Shown: piece after piece, positions 1,350 to 28,804 of the stretch
Layout of the letters: each line of letters starts with the position of its first letter
Numbering within the stretch: position 1 is the first letter of the stretch
IMG/VR virus record: IMGVR_UViG_3300008266_000344
Coordinates: 1-28,804 of that record
Length of the DNA stretch: 28,804 nucleotides
Reading direction: 5' to 3' (one strand)
Source: a virus
Translations under genes and position numbers: made by a program
Notes under the pieces: generated by a model
The model's database searches: none
What the model was told of the DNA's origin: nothing
What the model saw: only the letters and a program-made list of their open reading frames with translations

Positions 1350-4300
1350 TTACCCATTCCTATTAATTCCAGCACGACCATCTCGTGATTTAGCATTCAT
1401 TAGTTTTGATAGTCCGTAGTTGTAATACTGTTCAATAGTTTTAGTATTATCAGAACGGATTAGTTCTTTAATTGCAGCTTCTGCTGCTGCTTTTTCTTCG
1501 CGCTTTAAGTCAGATCCATTGGCTGCTTCAAGTGAATCAATATACGCAGCTTGCTTCATAAACCTTGAGTAGATGTCATAGGCTTGAATAATTTTAAGCT
1601 TAAGATCTTTAGGTACATCAGCATTAGGGGACATTGCATAGTTGTAAGCATTGTTAGCAAATTCATAGGCACTAGTATTATCTAAACCACTAGCCATATG
1701 TTGCTCAAGACCAGGAACTTGCATCTTAATTAATGCACGTTGCTGCTTATACTTATCTACAACTGCTCTACGCTCTGCAACAAAGCTAAATGGTAGTGGT
1801 TTAAGTTCATTAGCTTCTTTATCATTTAAATCGTAGTACGCATTAACATGTTCTTGCATAATGATTCTATTAAAGTATGCATCTATGTCCACATTCTGCG
1901 CTATACCTGCAGCAGTAGCCCATTGCCATACACCAGGACTAAACTCACCATTGCTAGGAGCAAACAGTAATGCACCCGCTCCATACTGATCAACATCTGA
2001 CTGGTTTTTAATAGTCCAATTTTGCATTTCTGAACTAAATTTAAGAATAGGTTGAATCTCTTTAGACTTTTTAGATACAAGGTATGCAATCTTGCCTGGG
2101 TTATCACCCATCCATGTTGCTAATGCCATCTCATATGGGTCACTAGCATCTGGATACTTTTGCTTTACCTGATCTAGCACTTCATAGAATGTTTCCTGCA
2201 TAGATACTACGCCTGAATCAAGCATGTACTCAGGCAAGTCTTTATTACCCTTAAGTTGTACAGACATAGGAAGAACCATTCCCAATAGTGCACGTGTAAC
2301 AATAATGTTGTGTGCACTAATGCGTGTATTCTTTAGGTATTCCATTTTATCTGCTTCAAACAAAGCAGTGTCTATACTGCCATCTGGCAAGATGTACTTA
2401 GGATCCTTTGGATTAACACCATAACCATTGGCTTGATTGTAACTAATAGCTTGTGTAAGAGCTGAGATTTCCTGTGTTGACTTCTCATCAGGACTTAACA
2501 TGCTCCAGATGTTACGTGCAAACTTAGGAGTAACTGCATTATAAAGCGTTACGTTATCACCAAGGCTACCCATTAAAGTATTATCTAGGTCTTCAGCAAG
2601 GTTCTTTGTTGGATCAAACTTACCAAGCAAAGCTTTACCTGTAAGGATTGACAATGAAGCCATTGGACCCGAAAGGTAAGGCATACCAGCATCAGTCTGG
2701 AACGAAGGATTACCAGCAGTTAAGTTAAACGTAATGTTGCTGAATAAAGGTTGCTTCATACTTTCAGTATTGCCAGTTAATGTACGAATAGTGCTATCAA
2801 CTGCACTGTAGATAACATCATCCATAGGCAAGATTACATAAGGCTGACCATCTGGATCCGTATGTACTTCACCTACAGCATCAAAGCCTTGATTAATTAA
2901 TCTTAGACGATAGATGGTTTGAAGCGGGTAGTCTTTAGTGAGACGATACATACGACGATGAAAGTCTTCAACTGCACGGTAGAAACGACCTACTGTTCGC
3001 ATGTTGTAAGCAAATACAGTCTGCATGGCAGGGTTATCAGAGAACTTAAGTACATGTTGAGTAGCATCATTTATAGCTTTGTTGCCAAATACTTTAGCTG
3101 CTTGTTCTTTTGCATTGCGATCAATTGTATCCAATGCTTTATCGCTAAGAACTCTACCTTCATCTTCAAGTTGTTTAACACGACTGTTGTAAAGATCGTT
3201 AGCCATCTTCAATTCGCCAGCTTGGTACTGTTCACGGAAGGCAAGGTAGTGCATAGTTACTACTGGTTGGCGCATAATGTTGTCAGTCTGACGAGCCATC
3301 AAATCAAAAGCTTTATCTTGACCGTGCTCACGAATCCAAGTTGCAAGATCAGTAGTAACACCATCAAAGTCAAGGTCAGTCATTACTCTGCCTTCAACTC
3401 TTTTACCTTTAATTAATCCTCGGTAATCATCAAAGGTTAATGTACGTAAAATTTTACGATGATCAGTAATTCCGTTAGCCATTGCTTCTTCAAAGTATTT
3501 AATTAACTTTGGATTGTATTGTAATGGTCCACCGTGAAAAGCATTGTACGTATCTTTAAGACCAGCGGTAACAAACTCAAGCATCTTATCAGCATCATCT
3601 GCAAGATCTTTATAACTATCAAAAAATCTAGTGCTATCTATAAATGCTTTGATGTTATCTGCTTCATCAACTGCTGGTATCCAACGACCTTCAGCATTTT
3701 TAATAAAACCAAGGTTACGCATTAACTCAGAAGAAGCTCTTGCAAAATCATCAGCATCAAAAATACCGTTATTGCGTAAAAATGTAGCACCAAAACTAAA
3801 TGTGCGATCTTCACCATTTTTAGTTTTAAACGTAAAGCCACGATCATTAAAGATACGAGTCATATTATCAAACATAGTGATGTCAATATCAGAGTCTGAC
3901 ATGTCTCTAGTATCAACTGCACGTATAGAACCCTTAGGTGCAACACCAAGAGCATCCATTGAGATGTCTACTTGACCTCTATCTAAAAGTACTGGTGTAA
4001 CCATGCTATCTGAACGACCAAGTGCAGCAGCATTTACGTTACGGCTAGATACATCACGCAAAACATTTGGATTATCAATAATAAGTTCGCGCATCCACTG
4101 TTGCTTAACTGGATCTAGTCTTCCAGCACGGCGAGCAATAGCACGATCAACTAATTCAGCACGAACAAGTTCATCAATTTCCCATTGAGACTTTTTCTTA
4201 TTAGCCTTTTCAATTCCCTTACGTATATCAATACGTGTTTCTTGGCTGATATCTCTTACTGCACCAAATTCACGACCAAGTACTTTACCTATAGCAACTT

Positions 4301-6527
4301 GAATACCATTCTTAATTGGACCAACAGCAGATAAATCGCCAGTTGCTGAAGCTTGGATTTTATTAAACTTACGAGCAGCACCATAGTTTTTAATTAACGC
4401 ACCGTTAGCGTACATCAAGAACATAAAGCCTTCGTCAATTGCAGTACGAATACCCAACTGAGGAACAAGTGTAAGAGTTGTCCATAGGTCTGTAGCAATA
4501 CCAGTAACTCTGTGGTTATATGCTCCACCAATTACTTGTGGAATATATTCAATTAACTTTTTGTCACCTTTATTAAGTGATCTACTAGCAGCAAATTCAG
4601 AAATTGCTCTCCAGTCTGGTGCAGTTACGTAATTCTGAAATTGACTAGCATGTAAAGGACCAGTTGCAGCGATTGATCTGCCCTGAGCCAAACCAAATCT
4701 TTCAGGCATTGGTGCATTATCTAATACTTCCCAAGTTGTTTTATTACCAAAGTGAGCATCAAGAGATTTTTTAATAAACTCTTCTCCACCATCCATGCCA
4801 TGAATACCAGCACGACGCATATTTAATTCAAAGATGGAGCGATGCATTGCAAATCGATCAGCTTGACTAGATCTTAAGAAATCCATAGTAGCAACTTCAG
4901 CTAGATCGCGACGACCAAATGCAAGGAATGCTTGCTTGCGAAATATGTCAGCAGTCTTAGCTACGTTTGCATCGTCATGGTAAACAATAGAACGACCAGG
5001 ATGCAACTGAACTTGTTGTTGAATAAATTTTTGTAAAAAGTTTTGTTGTTTTTGCGCTTTAATTTCAACGCCACTTACATTGTCACTTAAAAGTTGTGGA
5101 CGAAGATCTGCATATTGAATTGGAGTTTCATCGTAATCTACTTTACCAGTAAAAAATTCACGAGTACGTTCTTTTGCTTTCATTACAAATTCGCGAGAAC
5201 TTTTTACGTGATCTGCTCCATTAATTGCATAAGTTTTATCTACTGTGCGACCACGAACAAATTTAGTAAATGCTCCAGTTTCATCATTATCAAACTGACG
5301 AACAAGACTTGGAAGATCTGTTACGCCTAAACCTGACCAGAATTCAATCTCTTCAATTGTGCCATGAGCAGGAGATGCTTTTTGAATTCTAGCAACAGCT
5401 TCATTCATTGCAGCTGGATCATCAAGTTCTTTAGCTTTTGTATAGTCACCAATTCCACGAGTGTAACTATCAAATACTGGAGCAACATCAGCACGAGCAA
5501 GATAGGTGGGAACATCGTCACCAGTTTTAATTGCAGCAGCAAGTTTTTCAGCTTTGCCCGCTGCTTTAGCAGCAACAGAACCACCAAGTGTTAAATAAGT
5601 TAATGGATCTGCAAAGATTTGATAAGCTAAATCAATAGTGCCACTAGTTAATGAAAATAATTTTTTATTATCTTCAACGCTAACGCCTAAAGAATTAGCT
5701 ACAAACCTGCCAATGTTACGACCTGGAGATAGTTGTGCTCTAGAAAATTCACCAACCATAATGCCAAAAGCTTCTGGTTCATTAAACATAGAATTAATGG
5801 CAGTTAAAATAGCAGGGTCGTTAGGACCCCAAGCATCAATAATTTCTCCTGGAGTATCACCAGCAAGAACATGCATAGCTACAAAGCTTTCAGCTCCGCC
5901 ATACTTATTAACTAATTCATCTGATATTGATTCATCGTAAAGATACTTGCCCTCAAAAGATTTATCAAAATTAGCACGAGTCCAAAATGATTCACGATTA
6001 ATAATTGAATTTTGAAGCATGTTGCCAGCAGTGTTTATTGCTTTACCGTATTGTGCTCCAGCTGCCATGAGAAAACGAAACGGACTTTTAATTACGTCAC
6101 CAACAGATAGACCGTCATCAAGACCTAAAACTTTTCTAAATGTTTCATTCTGAATAATTGCGCCGTTGTCTGGTTTATTTTGATAATCAATGTTGTAGTA
6201 AGTCTTTAATACTTCTTGCATACCAGGTTCAAGCTTTTTAAATTCTTCTCCTGCTTGACCGCCACGCATACGCATAAGTTTTTCATGCGTAGTTTTAATA
6301 CCTGACCAGTTTTCAATTAAGTTTTTTTCTTCACGAGTTAAAGCAGTACGTGCACCCGCAGCATAAAGAGCAGGACTAACATTTGCAACATTTGCATCTA
6401 GTTTGCGAATGGCAGCACTAGATGGATCATTTGGAGTATTTCCAAAAGTAGATACAGTTGGAGTTAATTCTGGAGTAAATGCTGCAAAGCTTGGCGACGC
6501 CCCATCAAATTCTGGTTGCACTGTCAC
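1350..6527 (-). CDS. Giant virion-associated protein, 1725 aa (possible internal/ejection protein)
   Basis: This is the largest gene in the window, taking about 18% of it. It starts with GTG at 6527, and that G is also the last base of the upstream TAG stop. The protein is predicted largely helical by eye. It has Ala-rich segments and a few moderately hydrophobic stretches, for example around FADPLTYLTLGGSVAAKAAG, LWTTLTLVPQLGIRTAIDEG and IIVTRALLGMVLPM. I see no convincing catalytic motif. It follows terminase, portal and two small genes, a place where short-tailed phages often encode large internal-core or ejected proteins. That role is inferred from position and size only. A fused head/minor-capsid polyprotein is an alternative. 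There are no frameshifts or internal stops. Confidence 0.85.
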   Translation of the reverse strand: MTVQPEFDGASPSFAAFTPELTPTVSTFGNTPNDPSSAAIRKLDANVANVSPALYAAGARTALTREEKNLIENWSGIKTTHEKLMRMRGGQAGEEFKKLEPGMQEVLKTYYNIDYQNKPDNGAIIQNETFRKVLGLDDGLSVGDVIKSPFRFLMAAGAQYGKAINTAGNMLQNSIINRESFWTRANFDKSFEGKYLYDESISDELVNKYGGAESFVAMHVLAGDTPGEIIDAWGPNDPAILTAINSMFNEPEAFGIMVGEFSRAQLSPGRNIGRFVANSLGVSVEDNKKLFSLTSGTIDLAYQIFADPLTYLTLGGSVAAKAAGKAEKLAAAIKTGDDVPTYLARADVAPVFDSYTRGIGDYTKAKELDDPAAMNEAVARIQKASPAHGTIEEIEFWSGLGVTDLPSLVRQFDNDETGAFTKFVRGRTVDKTYAINGADHVKSSREFVMKAKERTREFFTGKVDYDETPIQYADLRPQLLSDNVSGVEIKAQKQQNFLQKFIQQQVQLHPGRSIVYHDDANVAKTADIFRKQAFLAFGRRDLAEVATMDFLRSSQADRFAMHRSIFELNMRRAGIHGMDGGEEFIKKSLDAHFGNKTTWEVLDNAPMPERFGLAQGRSIAATGPLHASQFQNYVTAPDWRAISEFAASRSLNKGDKKLIEYIPQVIGGAYNHRVTGIATDLWTTLTLVPQLGIRTAIDEGFMFLMYANGALIKNYGAARKFNKIQASATGDLSAVGPIKNGIQVAIGKVLGREFGAVRDISQETRIDIRKGIEKANKKKSQWEIDELVRAELVDRAIARRAGRLDPVKQQWMRELIIDNPNVLRDVSSRNVNAAALGRSDSMVTPVLLDRGQVDISMDALGVAPKGSIRAVDTRDMSDSDIDITMFDNMTRIFNDRGFTFKTKNGEDRTFSFGATFLRNNGIFDADDFARASSELMRNLGFIKNAEGRWIPAVDEADNIKAFIDSTRFFDSYKDLADDADKMLEFVTAGLKDTYNAFHGGPLQYNPKLIKYFEEAMANGITDHRKILRTLTFDDYRGLIKGKRVEGRVMTDLDFDGVTTDLATWIREHGQDKAFDLMARQTDNIMRQPVVTMHYLAFREQYQAGELKMANDLYNSRVKQLEDEGRVLSDKALDTIDRNAKEQAAKVFGNKAINDATQHVLKFSDNPAMQTVFAYNMRTVGRFYRAVEDFHRRMYRLTKDYPLQTIYRLRLINQGFDAVGEVHTDPDGQPYVILPMDDVIYSAVDSTIRTLTGNTESMKQPLFSNITFNLTAGNPSFQTDAGMPYLSGPMASLSILTGKALLGKFDPTKNLAEDLDNTLMGSLGDNVTLYNAVTPKFARNIWSMLSPDEKSTQEISALTQAISYNQANGYGVNPKDPKYILPDGSIDTALFEADKMEYLKNTRISAHNIIVTRALLGMVLPMSVQLKGNKDLPEYMLDSGVVSMQETFYEVLDQVKQKYPDASDPYEMALATWMGDNPGKIAYLVSKKSKEIQPILKFSSEMQNWTIKNQSDVDQYGAGALLFAPSNGEFSPGVWQWATAAGIAQNVDIDAYFNRIIMQEHVNAYYDLNDKEANELKPLPFSFVAERRAVVDKYKQQRALIKMQVPGLEQHMASGLDNTSAYEFANNAYNYAMSPNADVPKDLKLKIIQAYDIYSRFMKQAAYIDSLEAANGSDLKREEKAAAEAAIKELIRSDNTKTIEQYYNYGLSKLMNAKSRDGRAGINRNG

Positions 6528-6930: not shown

Positions 6931-7182
6931 CTAATCCTCTTCTTCTTCCTCGTAATTAAAATCATTCTCTAATGCATGTTGAATTAATCCAGTTACATGC
7001 CATACTGGTGACTTATCATCGTAGATAGTACTTGCCCACCATTGACCATCACCATCAAAAAATTCTGCGGTAACAAAATATGTAGTACAAAATGCACCGT
7101 CTTTATGAAATGTGTGTCCGTACTCGTCAAGTAAATCTTTTAATTTAGTTCTAAATAAAGCTAATCGTTCTTCTTCTGTCAT
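6931..7182 (-). CDS. Hypothetical small acidic protein, 83 aa
   Basis: Start ATG at 7182 overlaps the portal stop codon in an ATGA junction, indicating translational coupling. The protein has an N-terminal helix (EEERLALFRTKLKDLLDEYG), a Trp/aromatic-rich central part (GDGQWWASTIYDD) and an all-acidic tail of Glu and Asp. No family is recognised. Its place between portal and virion genes suggests an assembly accessory role (inference). Confidence 0.75.
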   Translation of the reverse strand: MTEEERLALFRTKLKDLLDEYGHTFHKDGAFCTTYFVTAEFFDGDGQWWASTIYDDKSPVWHVTGLIQHALENDFNYEEEEED

Positions 7183-8924
7183 GCCCCGCCACCCAGACGA
7201 GCTAGAATACTAGCAACATCTGGTGGTGGTCCCGCTGGTTGACCTGCTTGTTGTGGTGGTGCAGGTGGAGCACCCTGTTGCATTCCTTCAGGAGCTTCAG
7301 GTTGTTCAGGCATTCCTGGAGCTTCTTCTGTTTCGCCTTCTTCTTTCTTAAAAATTTCCATAACAGCATCTTCAATAGAAGTGCCCTTCTTTTTCATATC
7401 AATTACATTAGCAATCTTTTCAATAATTTCTGAAGGATCTGCTCCTTGAGCAGCCATCTGTGGAATTGCTTGAGTTAATGCTCCAATAGATCCAGAAAGG
7501 GCATCTCGCATTCGCTCGATATCAATGCGGTCTTTTTCAAGACCAACATTCATACTCCAAGGTAGTTCGCTCATTACAAACTCACGAGATAGCAAGCCAG
7601 CTTGCAAAGCCTGTAGTGAGAAAATAAGTGCGCGAGATGGATCAAGTCCAGCCATAACTCCATAGCGAACCTGAATACTGTAGTCGCTTTTAATATCTTT
7701 AGAAGGCTTGTAGCTAATTTCGTATGGTGCACCTTGGTAAATGCCAGCCATTCTTTTATCTTCGTCAAATAAAGTCTGATCAATGTGGAAACAAAGTTCC
7801 ATAACCTTCTGGAATGTTTCAGCAAGAATTTGCTGTCCAGCCTTTATCTGCGAATCAAAGCCGCCAAGAAGTGCTTGAACTCCAGAACCTGTAATAATAG
7901 ACGCATCAATGTTACCTGATCTTCCCTCTGGGTAACGAGCACCCATTCTCATTTCTTGCTCAAGTAGTTGCTGTTCGGTAAACGCACCAGTAGGCAACTC
8001 AAGGGCTACACGACGTACGCCAGCAGGATTGTTTGTGCGGATAACAGAGTCAGGACCAAAAGCAAATTCAGATACGTCATTAGGTAGAACCAATGGAGCT
8101 TGTACAGATTTTTCTGCAGCTTCCATAGCCAACATGCTAAAGCGAGCACGAGCAATCTGCGCCCAAAGTACGTCATCAAACTGACCGCGGGGGTCATCTA
8201 AGTCAAGTCCTGGACGACGAGCAACTACAACTGAAAGCATTCCAATTGGATTTTTAGCCTTACGAAGAACCAAGTTACCGCGTTGAGGTAAGAACAAAAC
8301 TACCTGATCAGCATCTTCATAACGCATTAGTTCCATATTGGTGTCGTAGTCAGTCATGTCACGACCAAGACTTCCAATAATTACGCTTTCGTATTCAGGA
8401 AAGTCAACAACTAATTCACGAATAGTCTTAATGTACTTCTTGGTAAATGACACACAACGACCAAAGCGATCAAACTCTGGGTAAGAACCCATTGGATTCT
8501 CAATACGAATGTGTGGCATCTTTGCGTCAAAATTTGCATCAACAAAGATTGGCAAGAAACCATAGGTTAAGTACCAGTCAGCACCTGTATACATCTGAGT
8601 CTGAAGACTAGAGAATTCAACATAGTTGTTGGCAATGATAGTTCGCTTGTCAGAAAACTTCTTTGCTTTATCGGAGTTAATACTTGGAGTTGAGCAGTTA
8701 AACGAAGGAAGTGGAGCAAGAACTTCAGCAATGTCACGGGCAGCAACGTCAACAAAGTTAGCAATCATTGGACGAGACATGCCCTCTGGGAACATATCTG
8801 GGTAGACGGACTCCATGTTGCCACGGCGAACAGCAGTAATATCTGCCATGCGATAGTCACGTTCACTATATCGACGTGTAAGAGCTAATACCTTATTGGT
8901 TACTTGCTCGGTTGATAATGCCAT
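7179..8924 (-). CDS. Portal protein, 581 aa
   Basis: The portal forms the dodecameric ring at the capsid vertex through which DNA is packaged. The call rests on length (usual range about 450-600 residues), position directly after the large terminase, and overall character. The N-terminal part has helical segments around RRYSERDYRMADI, followed by an extended central region with FVDANFDAKMPHIRIENP, as in SPP1 gp6-like portals. Next come long helices around residues 270-450 and a low-complexity Pro/Gln/Gly C-terminus (PPAPPQQAGQPAGPPPD), typical of a flexible portal tail. An AGGAAA ribosome site precedes the ATG by 5 bases. The sequence is divergent, so the family call is by context plus character and is not motif-proof. 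Confidence 0.8.
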   Translation of the reverse strand: MALSTEQVTNKVLALTRRYSERDYRMADITAVRRGNMESVYPDMFPEGMSRPMIANFVDVAARDIAEVLAPLPSFNCSTPSINSDKAKKFSDKRTIIANNYVEFSSLQTQMYTGADWYLTYGFLPIFVDANFDAKMPHIRIENPMGSYPEFDRFGRCVSFTKKYIKTIRELVVDFPEYESVIIGSLGRDMTDYDTNMELMRYEDADQVVLFLPQRGNLVLRKAKNPIGMLSVVVARRPGLDLDDPRGQFDDVLWAQIARARFSMLAMEAAEKSVQAPLVLPNDVSEFAFGPDSVIRTNNPAGVRRVALELPTGAFTEQQLLEQEMRMGARYPEGRSGNIDASIITGSGVQALLGGFDSQIKAGQQILAETFQKVMELCFHIDQTLFDEDKRMAGIYQGAPYEISYKPSKDIKSDYSIQVRYGVMAGLDPSRALIFSLQALQAGLLSREFVMSELPWSMNVGLEKDRIDIERMRDALSGSIGALTQAIPQMAAQGADPSEIIEKIANVIDMKKKGTSIEDAVMEIFKKEEGETEEAPGMPEQPEAPEGMQQGAPPAPPQQAGQPAGPPPDVASILARLGGGA

Positions 8925-8932
8925 TTAATTTC

Positions 8933-10825
8933 CTAGTATAGACCTGACAATGTTTCCATTGCCATCTCATCAAGGTTTACAATACCCTGCATAGCAACGT
9001 TTCTTCTTGTTGCCCACTTGTTATTTGCATGAGCCGTTCTGAAATTACTTTGTTGAATTAATTCTTTTGCTCTAATCTCACAGAACCATAGTGCCATGAC
9101 ACAGTCAGTTGGTCCTTTAGTATCAGCCTTCCAGGTAATTAACTGGTTAACCAAAGCCTTAACGTGTTCATTAGAGTTATCAGGAAGCTCAATAAGGTTA
9201 TCCCGATTGTACTTTCCATCACGCATACTACCAAACAAGGATGACATGGCAGCTACACCGAAGTTAACATCCCACTTGTTCTTGCTGGTAAAGTGCTCCC
9301 GTAGTGCCGTACCACGGCTGGCAAGCCACATTCGCAGCTGATCATCAAGCGAGAAGGCTTTCTGATAAGCGTTGATTTCAATGCGTAGCTCTTGGGGTTT
9401 GTATTCTTCTACCCATTCCTTGATTAAGCTATCAATTTTTTGTGGCGTAGATTCAGCCATATTGTGCACGTCAAGGACATACCGTTTGTTGGTCTCTCGG
9501 TTAACTGCATAGACAACCATGGCGGTTTTACCAGACATGGCAGGATCGAGTCCCATGATAACAAACCAAGAACCCTCTGGTTTAGGGTGACCAGGAGCAT
9601 TAAAGTTTAATCTGCCCACTTTACGCATACGGTTGATTGAACCATTAACAACGGGAAGGGGGAAGATAGCATCTTCTTCGACATCTTGCTGTTGATAAAC
9701 AAGTGCCCACGTGGAGGGGCTAACCTCGCTACGACGGTCAAACAGTCGCCTACCGTCCCACTTTACAAAGTGCCCGTTTTCATCGGGTGTAAGCAATTCT
9801 GGATCATCAAACTCGTCAGCCCCATCCAGCGGTCTATCAGACCTAGCCCAGAGTGTCTTCCACTTCTCAGGCTTATCGTCAAACTCAAGTACAGCTGGCA
9901 TGGCTAGGTAAGTGAAAGGTGACTTACCGCCAGTCCAGTGCTCTGGATTTCTAATTTCTTTATATAGATCTATGGAGGAAACTCTAGTCCCTGCAATCAG
10001 CAGCGTCCCAGTCGAACCCACACGGGTAACTACCATCTTCTGCAACCAGTTGAGCTGCTTCTCCCATTCGTGCGCGTTTGTCGTTGAGACAATATCGTCC
10101 ATGATAATTAGATCCGCACGAGTACCGTAGATCTGTTGTCCAATACCAAGAGCTTGAACCGTCGGGTCCTTCTCTCCTGATTCGCGTTCGAGATAAATTC
10201 TGTCTGCAGTCCATTGGTCTGCCGTCTCCTTGTAGCCCCCTGGGGGTCCATACACCTGTTGCATCTTAAGCCATGGCTCTTCAGTCATGCGCTGCTTCAG
10301 GGAGTATAAGAACTCTTTGGCGCGGGTCTGGGTCTGAGAAATGATAACAATGCGGATATTTGGGTTAAGCGCAATTTTGTACATGGCGTAGTTAACCGTC
10401 ATTGTGGTTGATTTGGCGTGTTCAGGTGGCACGTTAATCAGGAGCCTACGGCGGTTACCTGGCTCATAGGTCATGGAAGGGTGTTGCCACGTCGGGTCGT
10501 GACCCTCAAGAACGTCAATCCAGTTTTGCTGATGAGGGAATACCTCGGTGTTCAAGAACTCTCTGGAGAACGTGGCAAAATCTATATTATGTTTATTCTC
10601 GCCTAATGAGGCGGCAATGGCATCTGACCCAAAGTTAGAAGCTTCCTCGACCTGCGCCGCGAATTCCCCATCTAGGAGCCAAGTTCTTAGGCTGGTCTTC
10701 TTCTTCCCCACAGCAGCAAGGGCGGAATCCATATCGATGCCCTGCTTGAGAAATGAAATAAACTTTCTCTGATCTTCAATTTGCCGAAGTCTGGTATGGT
10801 GTTGATCTCCAGCTTTAGCAGCCAT
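8933..10825 (-). CDS. terL: Terminase large subunit, 630 aa
   Basis: This is the ATP-driven DNA-packaging motor with headful or site-specific nuclease activity. Visible motifs are an adenine/Walker A region at residues 128-140 (LLINVPPEHAKST, a PPEHAKST-type P loop), Walker B DLIIMDD at 238-244, a C-motif-like strand TLLIAGT at 274-280, and the RNase H-like nuclease core with D427 (IMGLDPAMSG) and E483 (LRIEINAYQKAF). An N-terminal extension (about residues 10-62) looks like a helix-turn-helix resembling small-terminase DNA-binding domains. No separate small-terminase gene is visible upstream. It is the first gene of the leftward operon, with its ATG at 10825 and only a weak AGG ribosome site. 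Confidence 0.95.
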   Translation of the reverse strand: MAAKAGDQHHTRLRQIEDQRKFISFLKQGIDMDSALAAVGKKKTSLRTWLLDGEFAAQVEEASNFGSDAIAASLGENKHNIDFATFSREFLNTEVFPHQQNWIDVLEGHDPTWQHPSMTYEPGNRRRLLINVPPEHAKSTTMTVNYAMYKIALNPNIRIVIISQTQTRAKEFLYSLKQRMTEEPWLKMQQVYGPPGGYKETADQWTADRIYLERESGEKDPTVQALGIGQQIYGTRADLIIMDDIVSTTNAHEWEKQLNWLQKMVVTRVGSTGTLLIAGTRVSSIDLYKEIRNPEHWTGGKSPFTYLAMPAVLEFDDKPEKWKTLWARSDRPLDGADEFDDPELLTPDENGHFVKWDGRRLFDRRSEVSPSTWALVYQQQDVEEDAIFPLPVVNGSINRMRKVGRLNFNAPGHPKPEGSWFVIMGLDPAMSGKTAMVVYAVNRETNKRYVLDVHNMAESTPQKIDSLIKEWVEEYKPQELRIEINAYQKAFSLDDQLRMWLASRGTALREHFTSKNKWDVNFGVAAMSSLFGSMRDGKYNRDNLIELPDNSNEHVKALVNQLITWKADTKGPTDCVMALWFCEIRAKELIQQSNFRTAHANNKWATRRNVAMQGIVNLDEMAMETLSGLY

Positions 10826-15407: not shown

Positions 15408-15639
15408 TGATAATGTAATTGAAATTGTAGGATACAGAACAGAAGAACTAGAAGCAGATCACTTTGCTATCATGGGATACAAAGCTGAAGTGTTACTAAG
15501 TCCAGATACATTAGAGTATTTACAAAAGATTAATGAAGTTGTTATGGAAGGTGAAGCTATGTGGTTCAAAAGTTTAACTACATGTAAGTATGATCCATAC
15601 ACAGGGGATGTGTTTGATGTTTCAAGTGAATCAGAATGA
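15397..15639 (+). CDS. Hypothetical protein, 80 aa
   Basis: ATG at 15397, 11 bases inside the end of the DUF932 gene. Acidic; no family recognised. A repeated-like pair (VIEIVGYRTEELEADHF and FAIMGYKAEVLLSPD) suggests beta-alpha elements, and the C-terminus ends in acidic Ser/Glu residues. It overlaps the WhiB start by 23 bases, so the two are probably co-translated. Confidence 0.65.
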   Translation: MDLDDNVIEIVGYRTEELEADHFAIMGYKAEVLLSPDTLEYLQKINEVVMEGEAMWFKSLTTCKYDPYTGDVFDVSSESE

Positions 15640-15913
15640 ACTACCAGCATGTGAAGGTATGGATGTTAACTTCTTCTACCCAGTAGGAGAGAACAACGAA
15701 GACAATGCATGGGCAAAAGATAATGTTTATCCACAGCTGAGGAAAGTCTGTGGAAGTTGTGATGTTCTTGATAAGTGTAGAGACTGGGGTATTAGACACG
15801 AAGAGTGGGGTTTCTGGGGTGGTATGTCCGTCTATGAACGCCGTCAATGGAGAAGAAAGTACAACATTAAATTAGAACAAGCATGGACCTCAGGGTTCTT
15901 GAAAGGAATTTAA
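15617..15913 (+). CDS. WhiB-family Fe-S transcriptional regulator, 98 aa
   Basis: WhiB proteins bind a [4Fe-4S] cluster, partner with the host's principal sigma factor and alter transcription; they are found only in Actinobacteria and their phages. All hallmarks are visible: C12, then C45-x2-C48-x5-C54 (CGSCDVLDKC), the turn GFWGG at 65-69, and the basic segment ERRQWRRKY after it for DNA contact. The ATG at 15617 (MFQVNQNELPACEG) is chosen because GGGG lies about 9 bases upstream; an earlier ATG at 15608 is too close to that site. The N-terminus is short, as in other phage WhiBs. It may repress host WhiB regulons or direct phage transcription (inference). Confidence 0.93.
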   Translation: MFQVNQNELPACEGMDVNFFYPVGENNEDNAWAKDNVYPQLRKVCGSCDVLDKCRDWGIRHEEWGFWGGMSVYERRQWRRKYNIKLEQAWTSGFLKGI

Positions 15914-22838: not shown

Positions 22839-23687
22839 TTACTTAAGTCTCCTGACTTGAGCTAGTTGACCTACGATTACTGCAGCCACTACGACACCTT
22901 GAGATTCTTCTCTTTCTTCTGGTGTCATGTCACTTCCGATAGCCATAATTGCCTCAGCAGCAGCTGCAATCTGTACAATTCCAGGTACATTTTCTAGGTA
23001 GGTTGGTAGTTGGATACTAACCTCTTCTAAAAACTGCTCTGTGTCGCTTACAGGGGCAGCAATCGCTATTGTAGGCTCTGGTTCTGGGGTTTCTTCAGGG
23101 ACTATTTCAGGGGTTGGAGCTTCTATAGGAGTAGGGGAAGGGTCAGGCTCAACTTCTACAACTTCTTCCACAGATTCTGATGGAATAGGAGTTGGCTCTG
23201 GTTCAGGTGTAACACTAGGGGTTACTACTGGGACTGGTTCTATGATAGGCTCAGGGGATGGTGATTCACTTTGAGTAGGTTCAGGTATTGGCGTTGGCTC
23301 TGGGTCCAAACTTGGTACAACACTTGGGACTGGCTCAGGTTCTACAGTCTCCGTAGGTTCTGGCGTAGGTTCAATAACGACAGGAGTGGGTGACGGAGCA
23401 ATACCGTTGTAGTATCTGAGTGGACTATCTACTGGTAGTTCATCACTAACGTACGTTGTGTATGGTCCAGCATATCCACCCTCACACCATAGCCTTGGTA
23501 TTTCACCACGACCATTAAAGAATTGATTACTGTTATCCCATCCAACTTGATACGTACGCTCTTCACCCTGCTCGTTAGCACAGATGATTGTAGTCATTGC
23601 TGATTCAGCGAAGGCACCAGTTGGACTGAACACCATTAACGAACCTACAATAAAAGAAACAATCCCTAACTGGATTTTTCTTTTCAA
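22839..23687 (-). CDS. Secreted Pro/Glu-rich protein with C-terminal hydrophobic segment, 282 aa
   Basis: TTG at 23687 starts a clear signal peptide: a basic KRK, then a hydrophobic LGIVSFIVGSLMVF and AFA before a predicted cut after residue 27. A small N-terminal domain with two Cys (C36, C68; possible disulphide) follows, then a long Pro/Glu/Thr/Ser-rich linker (about 97-207) that could span cell wall. The C-terminal part has a helical segment and a hydrophobic stretch GVVVAAVIVGQLAQV ending in RRLK. The layout (exported, wall-spanning, possibly anchored at both ends) is unusual in a phage lysis block. Possible roles are envelope disruption or surface alteration of infected cells. No family is recognised. 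Confidence 0.75.
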   Translation of the reverse strand: MKRKIQLGIVSFIVGSLMVFSPTGAFAESAMTTIICANEQGEERTYQVGWDNSNQFFNGRGEIPRLWCEGGYAGPYTTYVSDELPVDSPLRYYNGIAPSPTPVVIEPTPEPTETVEPEPVPSVVPSLDPEPTPIPEPTQSESPSPEPIIEPVPVVTPSVTPEPEPTPIPSESVEEVVEVEPDPSPTPIEAPTPEIVPEETPEPEPTIAIAAPVSDTEQFLEEVSIQLPTYLENVPGIVQIAAAAEAIMAIGSDMTPEEREESQGVVVAAVIVGQLAQVRRLK

Positions 23688-23939: not shown

Positions 23940-25946
23940 TTATAGTTTCCTAACTGTTACTAGTAATGTGCCACCAAAGCCACTACTATTTTTATCTGGA
24001 GAAGATTCATTACTAAATCTAACTTCTTCAATTACGCCATTATATTTTTCACCAGTACGGTAGTCAGTTACATTAACAAACTTACCTGTCTCTTCAATAG
24101 CTTCAATGCGCTGGATATATTCCATAGCACGACCATCGTAGCCAAAGATAGAGTTGTATCTATCCATCTCATTGTCATAACAAGATAGTGGATACTGATA
24201 CAAACGTTGACGACGTGTAGCTGGCACTGCCTTAATCTGGTAAGCCTCAAGTACTGGTAGTTCTTGGTCATCTGTTACGTTGTTAAATACAAACTTAAGG
24301 GATATGTATTCTTGCTTGTTTTCAAGAGTACTAGTCATAAGTACATCTTGATTACTTAGACCCTCGGACAAGATAGCCAGTGAACTTGTAGTTCCATTCT
24401 TGTCAATGGTGTACACGGTAACGTTGTCACCTTGACCAGTTGTGCACTGTACGTTTAGGTAACGGAAGAACTTAGGTTCAACCGTACCGTAACGAATCTT
24501 ACCTGTTTGTAACCAACCACTTGAACGCTTAAGTGAACTATGTTCAACTTGAAGTTCACCAGTTCCATCTTCCTGAACAACCATAACTAAACGATTGTTT
24601 AAGTTATATACTTCAGTTGCTTCTGAACTTGATGGTTGTAAGTTTGTCTGATACTCAAGATCGTATGCGTATGCAAAAGTTCCATCATTAAATGATTGAG
24701 TTAAGTCAATACGAATTAGTATGGCATTTGTGTAAGCACCAGCATCTGCTTTAGTCGCAGCGTAAATGTATGTACCACGTTCAGTAAATCCATTAACTGG
24801 ATAAGAAGTTTCAACTAACAAAGGACCAAGAATTAAATCACCATCAGTACCAATTGAACAAATTCTTACTCCCCTATTGGTTCCAACAACTAAGTATCCT
24901 AAGTAGAAGTGAATTGCTTTAACTAACTCACCATCAGGAAGGGTAACACTTACAGTTGAACTAGATACGTCTGGAAGTAACGTTCCATTATTTGTGGATG
25001 TTGGCGTACCATCAAAAGGTATCTTCCAAATCTCACCGCTATTACCAGCATTTCCTGAAGCGTAAATGTGTGTTTGTCCACCAGCAATGTCATTCCAAAC
25101 AAAGGTAGAATCAAGGTGAGTTCTGGAGTCATATTGTTTGCCAACAGGTAGTGCCCCACTGTGTGCGTTAGTGTTTCCTTGACTGTCATCCAAAAGATTT
25201 AGTACATGATTTTCACCAAAGAAAATAAATCCTTTAGCATACTTAACAAATGCATTTGTAGTAGCACTATGTCTAGCAAATACCACATCAGAATCTAATG
25301 TACCAACAGTTCCTCTATGTATAGCACCAGTGCAAGTAGCGTAGTATTTTCCACCAGATGTTGTTACTGAGGTAAATGGGAAATCAGAACCACTATGTCC
25401 CTGTGGGTATGAAGTTGCTGTGTGGACATAGTTTGCAGTTGTAGCGGCAGAGTTATCATTAAGGGTAATTCTTTTTAGTACACCATTAGCATCACCAGAT
25501 ACAAGTACATCAGTACCAGCATTGTTGCCAGTAGCAGCATTGATTCCAGCAGCACCTGTGTACGCATGAAATACATCTGGAAGTAATGTAGCTTCTCCAA
25601 TAGTCCATACATCTATACCGCGACTATCAGCAAACCTATGCGTTACATGCTCCAAGTCTGTGCCTGGTTCATAGAATGAAATACCGCTACCATTATGCCA
25701 AGATGTTTGTGAACGTAGCCACCAACCAGTAAGCGATTGCTCGCCAGGTTCTGGACTGTTATCAAACTGATCCTTCTTGTATGGAGCAGTCTCACGACGA
25801 TATGGATTCTGATTATTAACAGCAACAATAAATGGTAGATCATCAATAACAATATCGTAAGCTATATCAGTTAAATTAAATGTTGCTTCTGTTGATGTAA
25901 CAGCAAGGTCAATCGGGACATCTTCTGTAATGTCATAAGTAGGCAC
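23940..25946 (-). CDS. Tail protein, probably beta-propeller-like minor tail protein, 668 aa
   Basis: GTG at 25946 is preceded by AAGGAG with 5-6 bases of spacing. The protein is beta-rich, with repeating blade-like motifs of strand-turn-strand in the middle (TDVLVSGDANGVLKRITL; AIHRGTVGTLDSDVVFA; KGFIFFGENHVLNLLDD; THIYASGNAGNSGEIWKIPF; KAIHFYLGYLVVGTNRGVRI), suggestive of a beta-propeller. The C-terminal ~120 residues look like a second beta domain (NVTVYTIDKNGTTSSLAILSE). It neighbours the collar fibre and the lysis genes, so a distal tail or host-recognition role is likely (inference). Confidence 0.78.
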   Translation of the reverse strand: MPTYDITEDVPIDLAVTSTEATFNLTDIAYDIVIDDLPFIVAVNNQNPYRRETAPYKKDQFDNSPEPGEQSLTGWWLRSQTSWHNGSGISFYEPGTDLEHVTHRFADSRGIDVWTIGEATLLPDVFHAYTGAAGINAATGNNAGTDVLVSGDANGVLKRITLNDNSAATTANYVHTATSYPQGHSGSDFPFTSVTTSGGKYYATCTGAIHRGTVGTLDSDVVFARHSATTNAFVKYAKGFIFFGENHVLNLLDDSQGNTNAHSGALPVGKQYDSRTHLDSTFVWNDIAGGQTHIYASGNAGNSGEIWKIPFDGTPTSTNNGTLLPDVSSSTVSVTLPDGELVKAIHFYLGYLVVGTNRGVRICSIGTDGDLILGPLLVETSYPVNGFTERGTYIYAATKADAGAYTNAILIRIDLTQSFNDGTFAYAYDLEYQTNLQPSSSEATEVYNLNNRLVMVVQEDGTGELQVEHSSLKRSSGWLQTGKIRYGTVEPKFFRYLNVQCTTGQGDNVTVYTIDKNGTTSSLAILSEGLSNQDVLMTSTLENKQEYISLKFVFNNVTDDQELPVLEAYQIKAVPATRRQRLYQYPLSCYDNEMDRYNSIFGYDGRAMEYIQRIEAIEETGKFVNVTDYRTGEKYNGVIEEVRFSNESSPDKNSSGFGGTLLVTVRKL

Positions 25947-25955
25947 TTATGCTCC

Positions 25956-27137
25956 TTAGAATTTAATAATGTAATTGACTACGATGTATGGTTGCAAGTT
26001 ATTGTGCGCCAATCCGCCACCAGTTGTACCAACCGATGGTTGAGAATCACCAATACCATTGGCTGTAACACCACTACTTCCACTGCCATAATCATTGCCT
26101 GAATCAAATACAATTTGACCACTATGATTATGAGCTGGTATTTGTGTTACGTCAAGAGTTACTTCTTTTACTCCACCAGTTTCAGCAAGTGCATCAAACT
26201 CTACTTGAGTTGAGTCAAGTCCAACAGGAACTTTACCCTTTAGGTTAGGAACATTAAATGTAGTTGTAGTGTCACCTGCACCATAAGTTGTACCAATTAC
26301 ACCAAATAGCGTTGCATACGTAGTACGTGATATTGTTTGCCCATCACATAAAAAGTAACCAGCAGGTATATTGTTACTAGCACCAGCATAAGAAGCAATT
26401 ACACCAGCAGGTACTGCAACAGTAATAGCAGCACTTAACGCATTTAATTGAGTTTGAATAGAAGAAGTAACACCATCTACATAGCTAAGTTCAGTAGATG
26501 TTATAGTTCCTACTGAAGTTGTTGATGGTAGTACTACTGTTCCAGTAAATGTAGGACTAACACTAGGTGCTTTAGCATCTATTTGTGTTTGAATGCTAGA
26601 TGTAACTCCATCAACATAATTAAGTTCAGCAGTAGATGCAAGTACACCATCCATAATATTAAGTTCTGCTGTGCTTGCAGTAATACCATCAAGTACATTT
26701 AACTCTGTTGATGTAGCAGTAAGAGTAACATTCTCATTAATTTTTGGTGTAGTTAATGTTTTGTTAGTAAGAGTTTGTGTGTTTGTTGTACCAACTACAG
26801 CTCCTGTAGCACCATGAACAGCAGTAGCATCAATGTGGTTCTGTGCATCTTGCAAGTCACGACCAGTAATCATGTGCTTTACTATCTGCCCAGCAGTGTG
26901 TGTCTGTGCAGTAGTGCCATCCTGAGCACGAGTAACCTTTAAAGTTGGTGCAGATACACCAGACTGGTCTGCATCAACAGTAATAATTTCTTCAATTGCC
27001 GTGTCTGGGTTAAGTACCAAAGTATACGGTGGACTAGGAAGATTAGTTATGTTGTCAAGAGTAATCTGAGTAGCAATGTTAGATACGTTACCTGCTAATG
27101 CTTTCTCAGATGCAATGGAAGAGTAATTGCGTGCCAT
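25956..27137 (-). CDS. Tail fibre with phage tail-collar domain, 393 aa
   Basis: The N-terminal ~100 residues form a virion-attachment-like domain (LPSPPYTLVLNPDTAIEEIITVD; TVRAQDG-type segment). Residues 140-225 carry repeated S-T-(A)-E-L-N-x-x-D-G motifs at about 143, 155, 168 and 214 that form a fibre shaft. Residues about 243-308 match the tail-collar domain: AGVIASYAGASNNIPAGYFL with C264DGQ, then LFGVIGTTYGAGDTTTTFNVP and NLKGKVPVGLD. The C-terminal His/Gly-rich segment (IPAHNHSGQIV, NNLQPYIVVNYIIKF) is the typical ending. It is the probable host-receptor-binding fibre, and the host range determinant. Confidence 0.92.
   Translation of the reverse strand: MARNYSSIASEKALAGNVSNIATQITLDNITNLPSPPYTLVLNPDTAIEEIITVDADQSGVSAPTLKVTRAQDGTTAQTHTAGQIVKHMITGRDLQDAQNHIDATAVHGATGAVVGTTNTQTLTNKTLTTPKINENVTLTATSTELNVLDGITASTAELNIMDGVLASTAELNYVDGVTSSIQTQIDAKAPSVSPTFTGTVVLPSTTSVGTITSTELSYVDGVTSSIQTQLNALSAAITVAVPAGVIASYAGASNNIPAGYFLCDGQTISRTTYATLFGVIGTTYGAGDTTTTFNVPNLKGKVPVGLDSTQVEFDALAETGGVKEVTLDVTQIPAHNHSGQIVFDSGNDYGSGSSGVTANGIGDSQPSVGTTGGGLAHNNLQPYIVVNYIIKF
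26447..26711 (-). repeat. Repeated T(A)ELNxxDG coding units in the tail fibre
   Basis: Within the fibre gene, four copies of a short S-T-(A)-E-L-x-x-x-D-G unit are encoded. Two longer units with YVDGVTSSIQTQ are near-identical in protein sequence. At DNA level the two long units around 26440-26500 and 26577-26635 are similar but not identical, so they have diverged. Such units are a common source of length changes in fibres. Confidence 0.7.
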
Positions 27138-27144
27138 GATTTAC

Positions 27145-28044
27145 CTATCTTGTAAAGTGGATTCTAGTTGGGTTACGATCAGTTAACTTTCGACTTTCTT
27201 CAGCAAGTCTCTTGTCATATAATGCAAGTAGATACTTAGCAGTGTTAGTACCAGCACCATAAGAACGACCAGCAATTTGTGACTGTTGATCAGACTCAGC
27301 AGAACCAAAGGTCAAACGACCTGGATCTACGAATGAAGCTAGCCGCGCTGAAGCACCAAGAACAATTACATCCTTACAAGATTGCGGTAAGCCAGTAACA
27401 ATTTCAAAATCATCATCATTATTATCCATTACAACTGGAGCAGAAGTGTAAAATATTTGTACAGTTCTTCCAGGTTCTATGCCAGAGTATAAGCTAATAC
27501 TATTTTTAGAATTAAAAGCACTAGTGTTAGCCATAGGATCAACACGCCAACCACGAACAGGAAGCCATTCTTTAGATGGACCAGTAGTTTGAAAAGATAC
27601 TCCAAGTACAGTTTCTACTTCATCTGGTAAAGCATACGTTGATCTAGCTGTTGAGTAAGAAAACGTATGAGTATCAGTAGCATATAGATCTGGAAACACA
27701 GCTTGAATAGTATCGTTAATAGCTTCTTTAATATCAACAGATGGGAAGGTAGGAGATACAATTACACGTGTACCAACTGCATGACTAGAAGCAGTTGTAC
27801 CATTGTAACCACGACCATAAGGAGGAATACTAAGTACACCAGTATTGCGGTCATATGAATCTACATAAATAAGTTCGTCATCAATTTGAATAATACCAGT
27901 TGAGATATTAGTAGCAGAAGCAACAGTAATACTAGTAGCCGTTGTATTAACGGCAGCAGTAAGGTGTGTCTGACGATCTTGACGCAGTGTAAAACCTGCT
28001 AACTTACGCGATACTTCATCAGTCATTTGACCAAATGTAGCCAT
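27145..28044 (-). CDS. Putative head-tail adaptor or tail tube protein, 299 aa
   Basis: The start ATG at 28044 overlaps the upstream stop (TAATG). A beta-rich N-terminal part (TATSITVASATNISTGIIQIDDELIYVDSYD) resembles phage virion attachment or hub domains. It is followed by DIKEAINDTIQAVFPDLY and a region typical of tail-adaptor proteins (SCKDVIVLGASARLASF; QQSQIAGRSYGAGTNTAKYLLALYDKRL). It lies directly upstream of the fibre gene. The adaptor label is from sequence character and position, not from a diagnostic motif. It could equally be a virion baseplate-like component. Confidence 0.65.
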   Translation of the reverse strand: MATFGQMTDEVSRKLAGFTLRQDRQTHLTAAVNTTATSITVASATNISTGIIQIDDELIYVDSYDRNTGVLSIPPYGRGYNGTTASSHAVGTRVIVSPTFPSVDIKEAINDTIQAVFPDLYATDTHTFSYSTARSTYALPDEVETVLGVSFQTTGPSKEWLPVRGWRVDPMANTSAFNSKNSISLYSGIEPGRTVQIFYTSAPVVMDNNDDDFEIVTGLPQSCKDVIVLGASARLASFVDPGRLTFGSAESDQQSQIAGRSYGAGTNTAKYLLALYDKRLAEESRKLTDRNPTRIHFTR

Positions 28045-28804
28045 TAGTTACCCTTCATTAGTTCATCACGAATTTTCATAAGAAGCTTTCCAAGTTTGTT
28101 TTGTCCCTTGCCATTTACTTGACCCCAGAAAGTATCTCCCCAAGTGTTACCTTCAATTAAATCTGCAAAACCAGTATCAACTAACTTCTGTTTTAATTCT
28201 GGATTTTGTTGGAACTTTGCACGAAGTCCAGCTTCCATTACTTCTTCACGTATTTTATTCCAATTACTTCTAAGAGTTACTGTTCTACCAATTTTCTTTG
28301 CTTCTCCTGCTGTCTTAGCAGCAAGAATTTTTGCACGTTCAGTTGTATTAGTAGTCTTCATTGCTTGGAAAAAATGCTCAACAGTTGGATAAGTTTCATC
28401 GCCAAATTTAAAAGAAGATTCACTCATATTAGAAAGAAAAGAACTTTCTCCTCTAAAAGAATTAATTGGTTTTAAATCACCGCTATTATAAATATCTTTT
28501 AATTCAGAAAAATCTGATTCATGTGCTTGTTCAAAACTAGTTTCTTTAAGTAATTGATTATGTTTTGTCCAGTCATTATTATTTAATGCATCTAATTCAG
28601 ATTCATAAAGTTCATCAACATTATCTTCAGTTAATCTAACAGTAGATGTACTTTTAGATGTTGATTTAGAAGAAAGTGGTTTTATATTATTTACATTCCA
28701 TGGATCAAACTGTTGCATGTATTCTTGAATAGCACTTCGACCAGATTCTTTAAGCTCACTTGCCGTACCTATGCCAGCAAAGTTTTTAAATTTAGGTGGA
28801 ATAC
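28044..28804 (-). CDS. NADAR/YbiA-domain protein, C-terminal part of a probably larger ORF
   Basis: An internal ATG at 28718 gives 224 residues, but the frame is open to the right edge (upstream codons read IPPKFKNFAGIGTASELKES, with no stop) and the ATG has no ribosome site, so this is likely the end of a larger protein. From that ATG, residues 83-220 are a NADAR (YbiA/DUF1768) domain: FRGESSFLSN (88-97), PTVEHFFQAMK with E114-H115, W153, the conserved M161 and K168, E189, TFWGQ (196-200) and GQNKLGKLLM (205-214). NADAR enzymes cleave N-glycosidic bonds in ADP-ribose-type or riboflavin-pathway compounds. The preceding ~80 residues are polar and disordered. It lies directly upstream of tail genes. 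Confidence 0.85.
   Translation of the reverse strand, partial: IPPKFKNFAGIGTASELKESGRSAIQEYMQQFDPWNVNNIKPLSSKSTSKSTSTVRLTEDNVDELYESELDALNNNDWTKHNQLLKETSFEQAHESDFSELKDIYNSGDLKPINSFRGESSFLSNMSESSFKFGDETYPTVEHFFQAMKTTNTTERAKILAAKTAGEAKKIGRTVTLRSNWNKIREEVMEAGLRAKFQQNPELKQKLVDTGFADLIEGNTWGDTFWGQVNGKGQNKLGKLLMKIRDELMKGN

Follow-up and report, generated by a model that had tools for sequence, protein, structure and literature searches.

The DNA analyzed here, referred to as the window, is a stretch of 28,804 nucleotides covering positions 1 to 28,804 of the IMG/VR record IMGVR_UViG_3300008266_000344, and the record itself ends at the window's right edge. The right end holds the 3' part of a large gene, called the carrier gene below, followed by a head-tail adaptor gene and a block of tail genes. 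The following features were recognized:

1350..6527, minus strand: 1725-aa giant protein near the portal and terminase genes (BLASTP match to a 1952-aa protein of the related record L111, E 2e-103)
7179-8924, minus strand: portal (phrog_104, E 2e-24)
8933-10825, minus strand: large terminase (Terminase_6C, E 3.5e-7)
15590..15913, plus strand: WhiB-type regulator (Pfam PF02467, E 4.4e-12)
23940..27137, minus strand: tail genes, encoding a collar-domain protein and a 668-aa phrog_11667 protein (Pfam and PHROG matches)
27145..28044, minus strand: head-tail adaptor, SU10-adaptor-like (phrog_7578, E 2.5e-106; Pfam SU10_adaptor, E 1.6e-5, just under the cut-off)
28042..28058, minus strand: conserved 3' junction ATGAAGGGTAACTAATG (identical in L002-L006, L085 and L088, near-identical in L092)
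28044..28802, minus strand: 3' part of the carrier gene, encoding the C-terminal 252 residues and the stop of an 838-aa protein (open frame in the window; ORFs in L002 and L003)
28050..28469, minus strand: NADAR domain of the YbiA type (Pfam, PDB sequence search, pocket mapping, Foldseek and hmmsearch)
28470..28697, minus strand: linker between the SLOG and NADAR domains (absent from the SLOG-only L085; partly of low to middling pLDDT)
28698..28802, minus strand: C-terminal 35 residues of a SLOG domain that looks circularly permuted, FAGIGT...GRSAIQEYMQQF (hmmsearch E 2.5e-14, frame residues 1-35)

The original prediction had placed a NADAR domain in a frame running to the right edge of the window, and both observations hold. 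The frame (28044-28802, minus strand) is free of stops over 252 codons up to the edge. NADAR (PF08719) matches its residues 119-248 with E 4.4e-30 (105.5 bits, cut-off 35.1), hmmsearch places the domain at residues 112-251, and a search of PDB sequences finds Escherichia coli YbiA (2b3w) with E 1.4e-22. We considered and rejected the internal ATG at 28718 as the beginning of a gene: as had been noted before, this ATG has no ribosome-binding site (upstream sequence gtgctattcaagaatac), and the frame runs 614 codons further upstream in two relatives. One of these, L003, shares 99.7-99.8% identity with the window across approximately 8.8 kb; the other, L002, encodes a NADAR protein with 100% amino acid identity to that of the window. 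In both (L002 6159-8672 and L003 4398-6911) there is no stop or gene start just beyond position 28804, and the frame extends to an ATG directly after the stop of the preceding gene, forming a single uninterrupted 838-aa ORF between the major capsid and adaptor genes. The suspected fusion to a larger protein of the virion block is thus supported. The tail of the SLOG domain at the start of the frame is a detail that the original prediction had missed.

In full contigs, the genes for the capsid scaffold and the major capsid protein are followed by small genes and one that resembles a glycosyltransferase gene; then come the carrier, the adaptor, collar and tail genes, and an M23 lysin. Several of these names were assigned by eye from sequence. 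The adaptor gene directly follows the carrier gene in the carrier loci tested. The adaptor protein is 38-40% identical to those of Streptomyces phages of the Beephvirinae, its closest named cultured relatives, and the order of the adaptor, capsid and tail genes appears similar to theirs by eye. Abafar, from the Beephvirinae group sharing the adaptor, is a podovirus as seen by TEM (PMC11536984). The WhiB gene indicates an actinobacterial host, and the window phage, a small one from freshwater, is probably an actinobacterial podovirus. Genome scans for the host that used the N-terminus of the carrier or the terminase yielded no match.

The ADP-ribose pocket of the window NADAR is intact. In the structure 8bau, ADP-ribose is held by E43, K50, R79, W89, R93, E125, D130 and W133 (PMC11543638), and the corresponding residues of the 252-aa frame are E142, K149, R173, W181, R185, E217, D223 and W226. 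The last six are the equivalents of 8bau R79, W89, R93, E125, D130 and W133 and are identical in the printed alignment, which is one residue out of register at E43 and K50; this was resolved by the alignment with YbiA, in which E142 and K149 pair with E48 and K55 of YbiA, which correspond to E43 and K50, and by the equal spacing from Glu to Lys. In L002, a Lys occupies the position of R79. The position of E125, in the last strand, is Asp in antitoxins linked to DarT1 and His in phage gp30.3 proteins (PMC11543638, PMC11125620). Residue 217 of the frame is Glu, which puts the window NADAR in the YbiA subfamily and outside the DarT1-associated group; the Pfam family Phage_30_3 gives a weak match, the typical His being replaced by this Glu. 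The comparison with YbiA and DarT-linked NADARs that had been proposed earlier therefore returns a complete pocket with a YbiA-type Glu.

The predicted structure agrees with this assignment. AlphaFold2 gives pLDDT above 90 over the NADAR residues 700-838 of the 838-aa protein, and Foldseek retrieves YbiA (2b3w, E 5e-9, TM 0.77) and the ADP-ribose-bound 8bau (E 4e-6, TM 0.64; both TM values target-normalized). The NCBIfam riboflavin N-glycosidase domain TIGR02464 is matched above its cut-off (82 against 73.7 bits), and dN/dS between the NADAR domains of carriers is about 0.2-0.3, demonstrating constraint. Judged by its sequence, the window NADAR is a predicted hydrolase of ribosyl N-glycosidic bonds.

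The 838-aa protein begins with a conserved module of some 90 residues at the N-terminus, followed by a variable middle, the SLOG domain (420-621), the linker and NADAR (698-837). The middle is predicted to form long helices (coiled-coil) and disordered segments, and the N-terminal module has no relative in Pfam, PHROGs or PDB. Weak Pfam matches, among them Kelch_6, IPPT, IL2 and DUF4407, lie below the cut-offs and were taken as chance.

The SLOG assignment derives from sequence profiles: phrog_768 (DprA-like/SLOG) matches with E 5e-11 in L004 and 4e-5 in L002, and the Pfam family YAcAr matches in L105 at E 0.0036, below its curated cut-off. AlphaFold2 predicts an alpha/beta domain with pLDDT above 90 for most of its length; a whole-chain Foldseek search gave no significant SLOG match, and neither did a search of PDB sequences with the SLOG profile. 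The GSR-type motif stands at the C-terminal end in the carrier domain versus first in the SLOG domain of L014, and because of this shift the carrier SLOG looks circularly permuted.

To describe the variation of the carrier C-terminus, we took a census of the slot in front of the adaptor gene from scans with the N-terminal module, the SLOG domain and the adaptor. The C-terminal domains, called payload here, differ as follows:

No payload: L086, L093, L094, L095/L096, L097, L099
SLOG: L085, L087, L088/L089, L216
NADAR: L005, L006
SLOG and NADAR: the window group, L004
SLOG and DUF4326: L092, L105
SLOG, DUF4326 and NADAR: L103
Macrodomain, DUF4326 and SLOG: L107
DUF4326 and macrodomain: L215
DUF3626: L163, 5923-8640 (C-terminal match with E 1e-9; gap of about 175 bases before the adaptor)

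Three pairs show the exchange at the level of single domains. L004 and L006 differ by the clean presence or absence of 560 bp encoding SLOG, with flanks 95-97% identical; NADAR is cleanly absent from L085 and present in L002, the DNA alignment being uninterrupted in L085 at 2412/2413, where L002 has about 650 bp extra; and SLOG is cleanly absent from L086 and present in L085. Payload variants terminate at the shared junction ATGAAGGGTAACTAATG; here the last codons of the carrier probably contain the ribosome-binding site and extend over the start of the adaptor gene. A tree of the adaptor with 21 rows requires no fewer than 13 payload changes, a count that recombination of the adaptor could inflate. 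The C-terminus of the carrier is thus modular. The N-terminal module and the long arm are kept even in carriers devoid of payload, which show that the carrier has another role besides its payload.

Every recognized payload except DUF3626 is of a type that handles ADP-ribose, known or predicted. The macrodomain, which begins with VFGSNxxGxHGxGAA, has no sequence match in PDB, and it took a structure prediction and Foldseek to identify its fold: the AlphaFold2 model is confident (pLDDT 92), and its best PDB matches are TARG1, ADP-ribose hydrolases of the DarG type and viral macrodomains. The same family is common in phages (L240-L317), mostly as standalone proteins of about 140 aa; its member in L107 has no Pfam match. 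In a tree with 25 standalone phage NADARs, the five carrier NADARs form one clade (support 95/93), and on this basis a separate capture of each was rejected. By this phylogeny, the NADAR pattern reflects shuffling and loss of one lineage, not repeated capture from the sampled phages.

The whole gene may also be missing. In L188 and L202, the sequence preceding the adaptor matches that preceding the carrier of L099 at 88% over 600 bp, up to the start codon, and 12 relatives of 36-41 kb with an empty slot have no carrier, SLOG or NADAR anywhere in the record. The carrier gene is an accessory, dispensable cassette. A small basic protein (KDPRLARAGVSGYNKPKRTP...AAYWADKVKW; L176 5735-5998, L178 5714-5998) abuts the adaptor in phages with an empty slot, and the same protein directly precedes the carrier in several phages with a filled one.

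SLOG domains of this kind also occur in other large proteins. Compared with the 1725-aa giant protein of the window, its homolog in L111 has approximately 182 extra residues at residues 930-940 of the window protein; these are an inserted SLOG domain, apparently of the same permuted type. Across the 1950-aa homologs in L111, L112, L113, L115, L117 and L118, the inserted SLOG lies at about 990-1170, with boundaries that look clean. A related SLOG is found within the annotated N4-like virion RNA polymerase of Klebsiella phage Pylas (L080), and N4-type virion RNA polymerases are textbook cases of proteins that are packaged and ejected (PMC5512222); the giant protein of the window may be ejected too. 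The same SLOG type was also seen inside a 17.4-kb crAss-like gene (L318, cr130_1). SLOG relatives further occur in many proteins mostly of 3000-3900 aa (L114, L122-L128, L134-L136, L143), some with DUF4326 and macrodomain-like parts, which are probably polyvalent proteins. An independent 1063-aa protein (L014 / L017 7200-10388) combines an N-terminal part similar to Mu Gam and Pam3 gp33, NADAR, an unpermuted SLOG and a long C-terminus.

Taken with the position of the gene, these observations make an association of the carrier with the virion fairly likely. Packaging, ejection and the substrate of the payload are what we infer beyond this: the N-terminal part would fix the carrier to the interior of the virion, and the carrier would enter the cell together with the phage DNA. 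There, the payload would bind or hydrolyze immune signals or toxic products derived from NAD, such as cyclic or linear ADP-ribose derivatives and possibly ADP-ribosylated guanine, and would act at once, ahead of phage gene expression. The statement as a whole, that of a virion-associated, ejected carrier with exchangeable enzymes directed against host immune signals derived from NAD or ADP-ribose, is the reading that we prefer and hold to be somewhat probable. Small ADP-ribose derivatives have about even chances of being the main target, with ADP-ribosylated guanine ranked second. In the literature consulted we found no activity of NADAR, SLOG or DUF4326 on free immune signals, and none of NADAR or SLOG on those of Thoeris. 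A more far-reaching version, put forward tentatively, is that small phages of the podovirus type use a dispensable virion carrier, whose hot-swapped payloads (permuted SLOG, NADAR, macrodomain and DUF4326) may destroy NAD-derived signals at DNA entry, composite payloads splitting one signal at several bonds.

The carrier could instead be made late with the structural proteins and stay in the infected cell, where SLOG and NADAR would protect the ongoing infection from, for instance, signals of abortive infection. Since the carrier is dispensable, a late-expressed, unpackaged protein would give the same picture, and the clean empty slots in 12 near-full-length relatives indicate that it is not an essential part of the virion. 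However, the retention of the N-terminal module and the long arm in the absence of payload speaks against this explanation, as do the related SLOG domains in the giant protein on the portal side and in an annotated virion RNA polymerase; moreover, many NAD-based defences act earlier than late gene expression. We regard a purely intracellular carrier as unlikely, with some real chance of being correct.

The target could also be phage DNA, NADAR reversing the ADP-ribosylation of guanine by a host toxin of the DarT1 type. Every pocket residue that holds ADP-ribose is present, and guanosine-ADP-ribose was cut in vitro by every NADAR tested, YbiA and phage gp30.3 among them (PMC11125620), so that guanine-ADP-ribose in DNA stays a possible substrate. 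In cells, however, protection from DarT1 was conferred only by DarT1-linked NADARs (PMC11125620), and the window NADAR carries Glu, as in YbiA, rather than the Asp associated with DarT1. A DarT partner (PF14487) was found neither in the window nor in six related records, the control being positive. Finally, NADAR stands beside, or alternates in its slot with, SLOG, macrodomain and DUF4326, which points to small ADP-ribose derivatives at least as much. Hence, of the earlier suggestion of a role against ADP-ribosylation-based defence, the general idea persists, while a DNA target of the DarT type is not favored and appears improbable.

The match to TIGR02464 would fit a metabolic gene similar to YbiA that helps the infected host by clearing reactive riboflavin intermediates, but the fusion of NADAR to a carrier from the capsid and tail region and its exchange with SLOG, macrodomain and DUF4326 argue against such a function, as does the finding that no riboflavin gene was recognized among the window proteins examined; this explanation is very improbable. 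A structural role alone, in which the folds at the C-terminus have decayed and persist as bulk or binding modules, would account for carriers devoid of payload, but given the complete pocket, the dN/dS ratios of NADAR and the way in which unrelated domains converge on a common biochemical theme, there is scarcely any chance of it.

Comparison with known systems places the preferred reading, that of an ejected carrier with exchangeable payload, in context. The window NADAR shares the fold, the ADP-ribose pocket and the YbiA-type Glu with the YbiA subfamily (2b3w; the Phytophthora nicotianae NADAR 8bau), but YbiA proteins are known as free enzymes or as toxin-antitoxin partners, whereas here NADAR is the C-terminal part of a large carrier encoded in the virion block. 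Polyvalent and ejected effectors such as P1 DdrB, T4 Alt, the N4 virion RNA polymerase and MuF-effector fusions resemble the carrier in being large, in joining unrelated enzyme folds, in being encoded among structural genes and in probably being carried into the cell. Carriers likewise join several enzyme domains in a phage with portal and terminase: SLOG and NADAR; SLOG, DUF4326 and NADAR; or macrodomain, DUF4326 and SLOG (in the window group, L103 and L107, respectively). In contrast to polyvalent proteins, no metallopeptidase or ArdC-type domain was found in them, their payload is almost wholly of the ADP-ribose type, and they reside in podovirus-like genomes of 40 kb; the 2017 paper on polyvalent proteins (PMC5512222) does not mention NADAR, SLOG or DUF4326.

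The closest precedent is the viral NAD/ADP-ribose network of Iyer, Burroughs and Aravind (PMC9503650, PMC7824862), in which the same SLOG, Macro, NADAR and DUF4326 domains are fused in phages and packaging in virions was proposed, so that a virion-packaged NADAR and NADAR-SLOG-Macro-DUF4326 combinations had already been predicted in 2021-2022. In that network, however, the phage versions are described as typically standalone and as coming mainly from larger or contractile-tailed phages, whereas here, in small phages, a single carrier has the domains hot-swapped at its C-terminus, and close relatives differ in whether the site is empty or filled. The anti-Thoeris sponges Tad1 and Tad2 and the hydrolase RyDEP, which a 2026 preprint presents as the founding member of the phage enzymes that hydrolyze such signals (PMC13232231), are phage proteins as well, and the carrier may also remove signals derived from ADP-ribose. 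Its domains are of different folds, signal removal by NADAR and SLOG is a prediction, and delivery with the virion would mean earlier action.

What is new is the carrier family itself, its small podovirus-like setting, the natural series of empty and filled slots and of payload swaps, and the giant protein as a second place of insertion. Particle-borne enzymes that process ADP-ribose, such as NADAR, have so far been proposed mainly on genomic grounds, and the empty, payload-free and differently loaded relatives offer natural comparisons for asking whether the carrier is present in virions and which payload overcomes which NAD-based defence. Clues to the functions of DUF4326, of the GSNxxGxHGxGAA macrodomain family and of the putatively permuted SLOG also come from the domains with which they are exchanged.

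On the far side of the tail genes, near the M23 peptidase, the window encodes a 282-aa protein (22839-23687, minus strand) with a TTG start, an N-terminus resembling a signal peptide and long repeats rich in Pro and Glu.
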